NCBI RefSeq assembly: GCF_003952485.1
Contig: NZ_CP034447.1
Coordinates: forward strand, 5,284,501 to 5,348,500
From: Mesorhizobium sp. M1E.F.Ca.ET.045.02.1.1
GTDB lineage: Bacteria; Pseudomonadota; Alphaproteobacteria; Rhizobiales; Rhizobiaceae
Direction of reading: 5' to 3'
DNA: 64,000 nt
Below, one piece after another: positions 635 to 18,060 of the stretch. Positions within the stretch are counted from its first letter, which is position 1. Each line of letters starts with the position of its first letter. Made by a program: the position numbers and the translations under genes. The notes under the pieces were generated by a model. It did not search any database and was not told the DNA's origin. It saw only the letters and a program-made list of their open reading frames with translations.

Positions 635-1060
635 ATGAAAGTACGCGTCAAATGGGTCGAGGAACGCACCTTTGTCGGCGAGTCCGGCAGCGGTCACAAA
701 GTGGTGCTGGGCACGGCGCACGGGCCGGAAGGCCGAACGCCGGGGCCAAGCCCGATGGAATTGGTGCTGATCGGCACCGGCGGCTGCTCGGCCTATGACG
801 TCGTCCACATCCTCGAGAAGGGCCGCGAGGCGGTCGAGGACTGTGTGGTCGAGCTCGACGCCGACCGTGCCGAAACCGAGCCGCGCGTCTTCACCCGCAT
901 CCACATGCATTTCATCGTCAAGGGCCGCGCGCTGTCGCGCGACAAGGTCAAACGGGCGATCGACCTTTCGATCGAGAAATACTGCTCGGCCACGGCGATG
1001 ATGGCCAAGACCGCGACCGTCACGCATGATTTCGAGGTCGTTGATACGGCGGTGAAATAG
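635..1060 (+). CDS. OsmC family protein (YhfA-like)
   Basis: A 141-aa protein of the OsmC/Ohr fold, which uses paired cysteines in peroxide or thiol chemistry. The two expected cysteines are visible, in GTGGCSAYD near residue 50 and in KYCSATAMM near residue 114. The overall pattern is closer to the YhfA branch than to organic hydroperoxide resistance Ohr. The start at 635 was chosen because GAGGAAA lies just upstream and the reading frame before it is low quality. The TAG stop abuts the heptamer repeat array. Confidence 0.82.
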
Positions 1061-1160
<100 letters not shown>

Positions 1161-15056: not shown

Positions 15057-15224
15057 CCGCGCCTGCCTTGCTCGGGCACGAGGCAGCGCCTGACCTCAGC
15101 CCGGCGGCTCTGCCTTAATCTTAGGCAACTTCGACATAACGATCGCCGACGCTCGCCAAATCATCGATTGCGCTTGATTTTCTCCAGCCGGGCCAGTGAA
15201 ATGGTTTCACAGGGGAGTATGCGA

Positions 15225-16637
15225 TTGGCAGCGTTCGACGAAATGGCTCCGGAAGTCTCCGGATTGAGAAGACCATACCAGGCTTACGATCGCTGGCTGA
15301 AGGAACAGGACCCGGCCAGGCTCACCCAGAAAATGCAGGACGCCGAGCGTGTCTTCCGCAAGACGGGCATCACCTTCGCCGTCTATGGCGAACAGGAGGC
15401 CTCCGAGCGGCTGATCCCCTTCGACATCGTTCCGCGCATCATTTCCGGCCAGGAATGGCGCCGGCTGACGCAAGGCATCGAGCAGCGGGTGCAGGCGCTC
15501 AATGCCTTTCTCGACGACATCTACCACCGTCAGGAGATCCTGCGCGCGGGGCGTGTTCCCAAGGAGCTGGTGGCGAAGAATGAGGCCTTCCTGCCCGAGA
15601 TGATCGGTGTGAGGCCGCCGGCCGGCGTCTACACCCACATCATCGGCGTCGACATCGTCCGCATCAGCGAGAACGAATTCTATGTGTTGGAGGACAATGC
15701 CCGCACGCCTTCCGGCGTCTCCTACATGCTGGAGAACCGCGAGACGATGATGCAGCTCTTTCCGGAGCTCTTCCAGCAGATCAAGGTGCAGCCGGTCGAG
15801 AACTATCCGCAGCTGTTGCGCCAGTCGCTCGCCGCGGTGCGGCCGCAGAGCACCAAGGGCGCGCCGACCATCGCCGTGCTGACGCCGGGCAGCTATAACT
15901 CCGCCTATTTCGAGCATGCCTTCCTTGCCGACCAGATGGGCGTGCAACTGGTCGAGGGACAGGATCTGCGCGTGGTCGACGGCCATGTCACGATGCGCAC
16001 CACCGAAGGCTACAAACAGATCGACGTGCTCTACCGGCGCGTCGACGATGCCTTCCTCGATCCGCTGACCTTCCGGCCGGATTCCGCGCTCGGCGTGCCG
16101 GGCATCATGGATGTCTACCGCGCCGGCAATATCACGATCGCCAACGCGCCGGGAACCGGCATCGCCGACGACAAGGCGATCTATTCCTACATGCCCGAGA
16201 TTGTCGAGTTCTACACCGGGCGCAAGGCGATCCTCGGCAATATCCCGACCTGGCGCTGCTCGGAGGCCGACAGCCTGAAATATGTGCTGGAGCACATCAG
16301 CGAGCTCGTGATCAAGGAAGTCCACGGCTCGGGCGGTTACGGCATGCTGGTCGGCCCGGCGGCGACCAAGAAGGAATGTGAGGCGTTCGCCAAGAAGCTG
16401 CAGGCGAAGCCGGCAAACTATATCGCCCAGCCGACGCTGGCGCTGTCGACCTGCCCGATCCTGACCGAAAAGGGCCTGTCGCCGCGCCATGTCGATCTTC
16501 GGCCTTACGTGCTGGTCTCCGACCGCATCCAGCTTGTGCCCGGAGGGCTGACGCGGGTTGCGCTGAAGGAAGGCTCCCTTGTGGTCAACTCCTCGCAGGG
16601 CGGCGGGACGAAGGATACGTGGGTGCTGGATGATTGA
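15225..16637 (+). CDS. Circularly permuted ATP-grasp protein (Anbu operon)
   Basis: A 470-aa protein of the circularly permuted type 2 ATP-grasp family, with family segments VLEDNARTPSGVSYMLENR, NIPTWRCSEA and VIKEVHGSGGYGMLVGP (the ATP-binding part). Genes like this accompany alpha-E and transglutaminase genes and the Anbu peptidase, and the group has been proposed to make or ligate a peptide-like product. TTG 15225 was chosen because AGGGGAG lies 7 bases upstream; ATG 15219 is too close to that site, and 15201 has only a weak one. The stop is followed after 3 bp by a 459-bp inserted element. Confidence 0.87.
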   Translation: MAAFDEMAPEVSGLRRPYQAYDRWLKEQDPARLTQKMQDAERVFRKTGITFAVYGEQEASERLIPFDIVPRIISGQEWRRLTQGIEQRVQALNAFLDDIYHRQEILRAGRVPKELVAKNEAFLPEMIGVRPPAGVYTHIIGVDIVRISENEFYVLEDNARTPSGVSYMLENRETMMQLFPELFQQIKVQPVENYPQLLRQSLAAVRPQSTKGAPTIAVLTPGSYNSAYFEHAFLADQMGVQLVEGQDLRVVDGHVTMRTTEGYKQIDVLYRRVDDAFLDPLTFRPDSALGVPGIMDVYRAGNITIANAPGTGIADDKAIYSYMPEIVEFYTGRKAILGNIPTWRCSEADSLKYVLEHISELVIKEVHGSGGYGMLVGPAATKKECEAFAKKLQAKPANYIAQPTLALSTCPILTEKGLSPRHVDLRPYVLVSDRIQLVPGGLTRVALKEGSLVVNSSQGGGTKDTWVLDD

Positions 16638-16640
16638 GAC

Positions 16641-17099
16641 GAGCGAATAGCGAGTAGCGAGTAGCGAGTAGGGAAAAGAGGGAAATACGACGGCAATCAA
16701 TTCCTACCGAGATCTGATCGTTTGGAAGGCGGCCTTGAAGTTGGCAGTAAATTGCTACTCGGCCACGAAAGGTTTTCCGAACAGCGAAGCATACGGGATG
16801 ACCTCTCAGATACGACGCTCGGCGGCTTCCATCGCAGCGAATGTTGCAGAGGGTCACGGAAGAGAAAGTACAGGAGCCTTTATTCAATTTCTTCGCACGG
16901 CGCAGGGCTCTCTGAAAGAGTTGGAGACCCATCTCATACTGAGTGGAGAGGTGGGATTGATGGTCGAAGCGGAGGTCGCCAGCTTGCTTGGCCAAACTGA
17001 TGAAATCGGGAAAATGCTGCGTTCGATGATCCGGAGCCTGCAACAAAAGTCATGAAGTGCTTCTTCCGCTACTCGCTACTCGCTACTCGCTATTCGCTC
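16641..17099 (+). mobile_element. 459-bp inverted-repeat element carrying a four-helix-bundle gene
   Basis: The two ends are perfect inverted copies of each other: 31 bp at 16641-16671 (GAGCGAATAG then repeated CGAGTAG units) and 17069-17099. Each arm is a run of about four 7-bp units. The trinucleotide GAC lies directly outside both ends (16638-16640 and 17100-17102), a possible target duplication. The element sits between two genes of the Anbu operon. In a transcript the arms would pair into a long double-stranded stem, like the intervening sequences of 23S rRNA that encode the same protein family. Confidence 0.75.
16687..17055 (+). CDS. Four-helix-bundle protein (23S rRNA intervening-sequence type), apparent ACG start
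   Basis: A protein of about 122 aa with the recognisable family pattern: SYRDLIVWKAAL near the N terminus, then GFPNSEAYGMTSQIRRSAASI, NVAEGHGRES and FLRTAQGSLKELETHL. It belongs to the TIGR02436-type four-helix bundle proteins. The conserved SYRDLIVW segment lies upstream of the first ordinary start codon (TTG 16735), and no ATG, GTG or TTG exists in frame before it. A run GAGGG lies just before ACG codons at 16687 and 16690, where homologues have their Met. It is the only gene of the element; function unknown, RNA or DNA binding suspected. Confidence 0.72.
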   Translation, partial: TTAINSYRDLIVWKAALKLAVNCYSATKGFPNSEAYGMTSQIRRSAASIAANVAEGHGRESTGAFIQFLRTAQGSLKELETHLILSGEVGLMVEAEVASLLGQTDEIGKMLRSMIRSLQQKS

Positions 17100-17118
17100 G
17101 ACACCGGAGCAAGCTGAT

Positions 17119-18060
17119 ATGCTTTTGGGCCGCACCGCCAACGGTCTCTACTGGATGAACCGCTATATCGAGCGGGCCGAAAACATGGCGCGCCTTGTTG
17201 ATGCCGGCCTGCGCATGGCGCTGACGCGCACCCAGAACGCGTCCGAGGAATGGAACTCGGTGCTGCTCAGCGCCGGCTCCGACGTTGCCTTCTCGCAGAA
17301 ATACCAGGATTACACCGTCGCCAACGTCTCGGATTTCCTGTTGCGCGACATCTCAAACCCATCGAGCACGATGTCGTCGATCGAGACGGCGCGCAACAAC
17401 GCGCGCATGGTGCGCACCGCGCTGACCCGCGAGACCTGGGAGAGCATCAACGAAGCCTGGATGTCGTTGAAGCGCATTTTGGCAAGGCCGATAGACGAAC
17501 GCGACCTGCCGACCGTGCTCGACGCCATCAAGCGCGAGACGGCGCTGATCCGCGGCTCGTTCTACGGCACGATGCTGCGCAACGAGATTTTCGATTTCTC
17601 GCAGCTTGGCACCTATGTCGAGCGCGCCGACAACACGGCCCGCATCCTCGACGTCAAATACTATGTGCTTTTGCCATCGATCTCCTGGGTGGGCTCGACG
17701 CTCGACAACTATCAATGGGAATCGATCCTGCGCTCGGTGTCGGCGCACCGCTCCTACCGCTGGGTCTACGACGCCGAATACAAGCCGACCAACATCGCCG
17801 ATTATCTGATCCTCAATGTCCGCATGCCGCGCTCGCTCACCTTCTGCTACCGCTTCCTGGCGGAGCATCTGAAGTTCCTCGCCGACGACTATGGCGAGCG
17901 CCATGCCTGCCATGCCACGGCCGAGAAGACACAGGCCATGCTGAGGAAGGGTTCGATCAAGGATATTTTCGATCACGGCCTGCACGAATTCCTGGCCGAA
18001 TTCATTGCCGACAATACAAGACTGGGCGACGAGATCGCACAGGACTACCGGTTTTATTGA
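17119..18060 (+). CDS. Alpha-E domain protein (Anbu operon)
   Basis: A 313-aa, mostly helical protein of the alpha-E family, starting MLLGRTANGLYWMNRYIERAENMARLVDAGLR, with a second related motif LGTYVERADNTARILDVKY near residues 165-185. Biochemical activity is unknown. Such genes sit between a circularly permuted ATP-grasp gene and a transglutaminase gene in many bacteria. Its ribosome site (CCGGAGC) lies outside the inserted element, so translation should survive the insertion even if the upstream mRNA is cut. Confidence 0.88.
   Translation: MLLGRTANGLYWMNRYIERAENMARLVDAGLRMALTRTQNASEEWNSVLLSAGSDVAFSQKYQDYTVANVSDFLLRDISNPSSTMSSIETARNNARMVRTALTRETWESINEAWMSLKRILARPIDERDLPTVLDAIKRETALIRGSFYGTMLRNEIFDFSQLGTYVERADNTARILDVKYYVLLPSISWVGSTLDNYQWESILRSVSAHRSYRWVYDAEYKPTNIADYLILNVRMPRSLTFCYRFLAEHLKFLADDYGERHACHATAEKTQAMLRKGSIKDIFDHGLHEFLAEFIADNTRLGDEIAQDYRFY

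Follow-up and report, generated by a model that had tools for sequence, protein, structure and literature searches.

A four-helix-bundle gene between inverted heptamer arrays in an operon gap of Mesorhizobium: a candidate mobile cassette of a widespread kind

The insert between the ATP-grasp and alpha-E genes

In the window, the whole 64,000-nucleotide stretch of DNA analysed, a 459-bp insert separates an ATP-grasp gene, which ends in TGA at 16635-16637, from an alpha-E gene with its ATG at 17119. The features considered here are:

1058..1159, + strand: direct heptamer array without an inverted partner, given by TRF as (TAGGCAG)13.6 at 1065-1159
15168..16637, + strand: gene for a circularly permuted ATP-grasp protein, stop codon 16635..16637; the perfect arm starts 3 nt on
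16641..16671, + strand: left arm, an AGCGART heptamer array of 31 nt, perfect complement of the right arm
16678..16682, + strand: Shine-Dalgarno-like GAGGG, 7 nt ahead of the ACG, as read from the sequence
16690-16692, + strand: putative ACG start codon of the PF05635 gene
16690..17055, + strand: PF05635 gene for a four-helix-bundle / 23S rRNA intervening-sequence protein, 121 codons, stop TGA 17053-17055
17069..17099, + strand: right arm, likewise a heptamer array, exactly complementary to the left one
17106..17109, + strand: GGAG, intact and likely the ribosome site used by the alpha-E gene (ATG 17119)

The left arm reads GAGCGAATAGCGAGTAGCGAGTAGCGAGTAG (16641-16671), its exact complement lies at 17069-17099 and TRF detected period 7 in both, in agreement with the 31-bp perfect inverted heptamer ends reported in the initial annotation. 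An inverted-repeat search extended the arms to 37 nt (16640-16676/17064-17100) at 95% complementarity, the longest inverted pair among the matches listed for 16400-17400, and the predicted RNA fold pairs the arms (z = -5.0) with 0/100 shuffles equally good. The GAC triplets noted directly outside both ends are present (16638-16640 and 17100-17102), the left one directly after the TGA stop, and the described placement 3 bp past the stop with the next ribosome site kept was likewise borne out (TGA 16635-16637, GGAG 17106-17109). Downstream of the alpha-E gene lie a transglutaminase-like and a proteasome-like gene (Pfam), an arrangement that we take to be the operon named 'Anbu'. The sole Rfam match over the window was a tRNA; the cassette lies outside any 23S rRNA gene, between two protein genes. 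The insert has its closest named relatives in Mesorhizobium, and the host genome is a single contig of 7.35 Mb.

The frame between the arms is assigned to PF05635 (8.6e-36) and to NCBIfam NF008911 (2.9e-49), in keeping with the four-helix (23S intervening sequence) family named in the initial annotation; terminal inverted repeats and a frame of the S23/IVP family, two hallmarks of intervening sequences, are both present in the insert. Profile searches with the gene returned PF05635 and, more weakly and under their cut-offs, bAvd and DivGenRetAVD, with no catalytic domain, transposase or Y1 match. No reverse transcriptase was found among the four neighbours scanned (ATP-grasp, alpha-E, transglutaminase and proteasome-like), and the genome holds two reverse transcriptase matches, one of them at 4029207, far from the cassette. 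The ten proteins examined are mildly basic (pI 7.7-9.6) and the nearest solved structures are 2rld and 2gsc (XCC0516), the latter described as a homopentamer (PMC4990558). At the alpha-E gap 23 of the 27 copies retain a frame open for 112 codons or more, and the median dN/dS of 0.073 (168 of 231 subfamily A pairs, two frame-shifted copies being in the set) indicates purifying selection and therefore a protein that is made and matters.

The conserved start position carries no ATG, GTG or TTG, having instead the ACG at 16690. This ACG is the first conserved codon in 20/20 aligned copies and in 52 of 59 subfamily A loci (TTG in 2, GCT in 2 and unplaced in 3), with an ATG or GTG in frame 4-5 codons before it in 2 of the 59, and relatives too have a G-rich run shortly 5′ of the ACG. 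Subfamily C has ATG at a neighbouring position in most loci inspected, while in the subfamily B and D loci inspected ATG comes after or within the last left-arm heptamers. With ACG as a weak start, little protein would be made in subfamily A, and in subfamilies B and D the arm would place the start codon of the gene at the left-arm end. Both the conserved ACG start codon and the operon-compatible insertion module are objects for study.

Presence, absence and sites of the cassettes

In 115 of the 119 genomes of the genus an alpha-E gene was detected, and the preceding gap was readable in 114, gap states being assigned by length and motif. A cassette occupies 27 of these gaps, with TAGCGAR arms in 25 and TCGGCAG arms in 2; 19 gaps are short (about 21 nt) and read like TTTTCATTTGAAGGTTTTTTG, and 56 hold gene-less hairpins or other inserts, many of which carry other heptamers (AGTGAAT, AGTCAGT, AGGCAGT and GGTGAAT). 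In the remaining 12 the right arm alone is kept, together with the gene tail in the 3/3 that were aligned, and from their sequences these twelve look like decayed cassettes. The right-arm-only gaps are L062, L065, L081, L082, L182, L184, L198, L203, L206, L207, L224 and L238. Judged by these gaps the insert is a presence/absence cassette in which arms and gene behave as one unit, as the proposal of a small cassette had anticipated. The empty site with a single GAC that had been predicted was not recovered, the 19 short gaps having the form given above. A role for GAC as a target duplication was rejected, since GAC directly follows the stop in only 3/27 alpha-E cassettes.

On the alpha-E gene tree, a single-gene tree with 31 of 111 branches starred, presence of the IVP gene (the PF05635 gene of the cassette) needs 20 changes, which argues against simple vertical inheritance of the alpha-E cassette. 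Subfamily A needs 19 changes against a shuffled mean of 22.9 (5/500 as low), of which at least 9 are forced by well supported branches. Such frequent changes of state point to recombination or fast turnover. The weak clustering of gap states on the tree is what transfer of the gap from strain to strain by homologous recombination would produce, and such recombination very likely plays a part in the spread.

Seven arm classes were told apart by simple patterns in Mesorhizobium and its near kin, giving 136 classified loci. For the protein tree, 90 of the 136 were submitted and 89 entered, the alignment having few columns and the tree 6 starred branches. Arm class required 6 changes on this tree, the minimum for 7 classes (shuffled mean 54.1, 0/200 as low), and each class forms one side of a branch, a clustering that near-copies favour and in which two G rows may represent a false long-branch join, making G at two sites unsure. 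The link of arm to protein is not a link to the host, because several classes can occur in one genome, as in G116 with subfamilies A, B, C and D. The match between arm and protein supports recognition of the one by the other and does not prove it, as co-inheritance alone would give the same pattern. The 136 cassettes, in which multiple copies of one species may be counted, sort by their flanks into five clusters:

alpha-E gap: A 50, G 2
gap upstream of nuoD: A 9, E 11, D 7, G 1
gap after a glutamine-synthetase-like end (Pfam below cut-off, on a 45-residue piece): C 26
acyl-CoA-dehydrogenase gap: B 23
one more gap: F 7

Two sites thus carry subfamily A together with its own arms (50 and 9 loci), and the gap upstream of nuoD (PF00346 at 2.3e-119), where the upstream gene is presumably nuoC, has held four cassette types (A, D, E and G-type), each with the order arm-gene-arm. 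With 136 cassettes in only five flank clusters transposition is taken to be rare; as far as flanking sequences tell, movement of the cassettes looks rare, and the description of the insert as self-propagating is therefore only partly upheld. The intergenic placement proposed at the outset was borne out, cassettes lying immediately behind a stop codon or a few nucleotides further on. At the gap between the acyl-CoA-dehydrogenase-like gene and the NAD-binding gene (assignments made by Pfam on short pieces, the latter being presumably mmsB), the heptamer itself supplies the stop codon in 9/11 cassettes inspected and TAA precedes the array in 2/11.

When the flanks of four cassette sites were joined and searched, many genomes matched with no insert between them: 103 of 119 genomes had at least one match at E<=1e-46, and among the matches listed all but one cross the junction, most of them taking up about 190-240 genome bases per 210 query bases. 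Eight hairpins of the window's own genome were likewise compared with ten near genomes and empty sites were found; three sites (E1, E5 and E7) were aligned and the gap sequence had diverged. At these three, near genomes have an empty gap, a TAGCGAR hairpin or a TGGTGAA hairpin at the same place, and at site E7 two genomes have a complete cassette whose arms are made of 8-mers, in one of them at a contig edge. A fresh insertion with a readable junction was considered and rejected on the diverged gaps at E1, E5 and E7. No target duplication or exact insertion point was readable at the aligned junctions, the flanks of these old insertions having diverged.

Heptamer arms across the family and hairpins without the gene

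Two samples were drawn for the wider PF05635 family. The first comprised 109 loci, three of which were left out (one at an edge, two with ill-placed coordinates), leaving 106; it holds many near copies and most loci were found by similarity to the window's protein, for which reason the second sample was drawn. For each locus 200 bases on either side were compared at a threshold inverted-repeat score of >=30, with intervals in the same loci serving as controls. An inverted repeat was present at 95/106 loci of the first sample against 5/706 controls, and the best period was 7 at 85/106 against 0/706. Among the 95 armed loci the period was 7 in 85, 8 in 7 and otherwise in 3, and 11/106 fell below the arm threshold. 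Outside Phyllobacteriaceae the first sample had an inverted repeat at 31/42 loci and period 7 at 27/42. The second sample came from a PF05635 search of 299 genomes of the phylum, 52 of which had a match; with partial or weak matches left out, 41 loci outside the genus were obtained and four skipped, leaving 37. Here 21/37 had an inverted repeat, 21/21 of these with best period 7 (controls 1/102 and 0/102), and among the 16/37 below threshold some have visible short or degenerate period-7 arms. The search for four-helix genes flanked by inverted heptamers, which had been put forward as a check, was as such positive well beyond the genus.

Across these sequences heptamer arms go with the PF05635 gene family and the sequence of the unit is lineage-specific. 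Gallionella and Nitrosomonadales have AGGATTG, a planctomycete and a deltaproteobacterium AGTTTTT, Dehalococcoidia ACAACAG and cyanobacterial plasmids ACAGGGA or AGGGTGT. The left arm is purine-rich at 29 of 32 loci outside Phyllobacteriaceae, ten more, mostly with weak or no arms, being left out. A stop codon in every heptamer was rejected as a rule: the TAG/TGA units of Mesorhizobium have one and several other units do not. Subfamily C (L092, L109, L110, L341, L344 and others) has 8-base units, TAGGGCAG and TAGGGGAG, and the period is therefore not strictly 7. On plasmids of Anabaena and Pseudanabaena (L269, L273) a four-helix gene lies between cas6 and cas4 with heptamers AGGTGAC and TAGCTTT, and in Picosynechococcus (L271) one lies between cas10 and a Cmr3-family gene.

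In one genome of the second sample IVP inserts with heptamer arms (TCAGGAATCAG.../...CTGATTCCTGA) lie inside two 23S rRNA copies (L432, L433), in a hairpin near model position 1218, which we take to be helix 45. The other 18 loci of that scan gave no rRNA match, nor did 20 distant loci of an earlier scan. The two 23S inserts indicate that at least some intervening sequences of the classical type share the build of the operon cassettes. The suggested kinship to 23S rRNA intervening sequences thus now has both the PF05635 match and these two heptamer-armed inserts behind it.

The window's own genome has two PF05635 genes; a search of it for three TAGCGAR heptamers, allowing up to one mismatch, gave 54 matches, compared with 0 for a reversed control pattern. 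Eleven gene-less loci of this genome were inspected and are mostly short inverted heptamer hairpins with a small loop, several of which start within a few bases of a stop codon; they share the TAGCGAR kind of arm with the gene-bearing cassette, with exact ends that vary. Two gene-less hairpins lie in nearby gaps (C1:4741126-4741225, L020, and 4743601-4743690, L008) of what is presumably a carbon-monoxide-dehydrogenase-like operon, and the gap of the second is empty in four near genomes. The direct array at 1058-1159 opens with TAG, the stop codon of the OsmC-like gene at 533-1060 (PF02566), and its TAGGCAG unit is the arm unit of IVP subfamily B. The gap matching that of subfamily B is empty in this genome (L392).

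Genomes with more PF05635 genes also have more array matches (Spearman 0.54 over the 119 genomes, kinship uncorrected), the medians being 14 in genomes without the IVP gene and 40 in those with it, one cassette itself adding about 2.5 matches. Arrays are also found in 18/20 genomes that lack the gene. Complementarity of a hairpin's own two arms exceeded all 1000 permutations across 54 gene-less gaps; within one loop family it was 38.9 within loci against 35.5 between loci (39/5000 permutations reach it), and some gene-less hairpin arms mismatch, e.g., at L186. Concerted change of both arms was considered and rejected, the effect within one loop family being weak. Independent variation of the arms as simple repeats, which the initial annotation had named as a finding that would count against it, was in part found for the old gene-less hairpins (38.9 vs 35.5).

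Explanations and known systems

The explanation preferred here, to which we give a probability of roughly 0.53, is a mobile cassette of a widespread kind, in which a four-helix IVP/S23 gene lies inside a heptamer-array hairpin and the IVP acts on its own hairpin. A cassette of this kind is not met as described in the open PMC literature searched. The IVP would recognise the heptamer hairpin of its own cassette, either as RNA or as extruded single-stranded DNA, and would promote the copying of the hairpin or its insertion at new or already hairpin-bearing gaps, with host replication or repair supplying the chemistry. It would also act in trans on gene-less hairpins. The arms would render the insertion harmless, in that translation ends and the stem would fold out of the mRNA. 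A tentative extension, to which we give less than even odds, places IVP cassettes and gene-less hairpins in one phylum-spanning mobile class defined by period-7 inverted arrays and not by sequence. In this class hairpin copying would be driven by a small helical protein that forms oligomers and has no nuclease or polymerase domain, 23S intervening sequences would be the rRNA-resident members, and the class would be a main source of the unexplained heptamer microsatellite excess in bacteria.

A regulatory or processing cassette, in which RNase III would cut the 31-37-bp stem in the mRNA and so split the ATP-grasp from the alpha-E message while the protein binds or protects the stem, is a possible though doubtful function, compatible with mobility. 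The stable predicted stem (z = -5.0) would suit it, as would the in vitro excision of the Coxiella 23S intervening sequence by RNase III (PMC4990558); however, cassettes of one subfamily lie in unrelated operons and 87/114 alpha-E gaps have no cassette, and there is therefore no fixed regulatory role in the alpha-E operon. We regard it as rather unlikely that the cassette is a long-standing resident of a few favoured gaps, spread by homologous recombination of its flanks, with slippage and template switching matching the arms and the protein serving the host. Such residence is in keeping with five flank clusters for 136 cassettes, with gap states weakly clustered on the gene tree and with arrays in 18/20 genomes without the gene, but it does not account for the occurrence of subfamily A and its arms at two separate sites, for gene-less hairpins at several sites with empty counterparts or for the recurrence of this build within 23S rRNA and, in distant phyla, around the gene, which together need movement to new sites at least occasionally. 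An RNA-copied element, with the IVP working like its relative Avd and a reverse transcriptase acting in trans, is improbable, past use of such an enzyme being conceivable: the below-cut-off matches to bAvd and DivGenRetAVD and the stated resemblance of PF05635 to Avd (PMC10053308) stand against the lack of an RVT_1 match in 45/99 genomes with the gene and array numbers that are no different by reverse transcriptase presence (medians 33 and 39, P = 0.65). Reverse transcriptase dependence is as such disfavoured on the 45/99 genomes, and with no link to array number the IVP with host replication or repair would be preferred to an element borne by a reverse transcriptase. Chance, that is two unrelated heptamer arrays or simple microsatellites flanking a gene, can be dismissed, for while lone heptamer arrays exist (e.g., window 1058-1159) a period-7 inverted pair occurs at 0/706 and 0/102 controls against 85/106 and 21/37 loci.

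The mobile cassette may be compared with four known systems. To Avd of the diversity-generating retroelements there is a remote protein likeness, below cut-off; unlike Avd loci, the cassette has no reverse transcriptase in the four scanned neighbours, and there is no RVT_1 match in 45/99 gene-bearing genomes. In MITE and REPIN-RAYT systems a gene-bearing element is accompanied by many gene-less hairpins with similar ends, and the cassette and its many gene-less hairpins are alike in this. Unlike these systems there is no transposase or Y1 match, the array ends are changeable and keep mainly their period, and no target duplication was seen.

Bacterial heptamer repeats include the STRR of cyanobacteria and, like the cassette arms, are largely intergenic tandem heptamers with lineage-specific units. 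Published examples are GGGAATC in Xanthomonas, one genome of which has 70 convergent, inverted heptamer pairs, GGGGA(C/T)T in Nostoc (PMC4692102) and TAACTGA in Beggiatoaceae (PMC4679880). For the spread of the Beggiatoaceae heptamers it was stated that 'no mechanism is evident', with an unknown repeat-binding protein suggested as the mobile part (PMC4679880), while polymerase slippage has been cited for heptamer repeats (PMC4692102). Unlike those published, the repeats here serve as arms, either around an IVP gene or in gene-less hairpins. A term search of the main texts of PMC4679880 and PMC4692102 found no mention of S23, and among the open PMC matches listed, subscription papers lying outside the scope, no paper joined PF05635/S23 genes with heptamer repeats. 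The IVP, of about 120 residues, is a candidate for such a protein, so that the heptamer question is testable with a synthetic hairpin, and the cassettes may help to explain how common seven-letter repeats are in bacteria.

Three topics treated apart in the cited papers, namely 23S intervening sequences, orphan genes for four-helix bundles and the frequency of heptamer repeats in bacteria, are thereby joined. The 23S rRNA intervening sequences of Coxiella, Leptospira and others have the same protein family and a similar size (428 nt in Coxiella; PMC4990558), with the gene inside a long terminal stem, and have likewise been suspected of being mobile (PMC4990558). Heptamer arms are present here and were not met in the portion of the PMC4990558 account of the Coxiella sequence that was available. 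Unlike the 23S rRNA intervening sequences the cassette is hosted by an operon gap, and several subfamilies together with their gene-less kin can share one genome.
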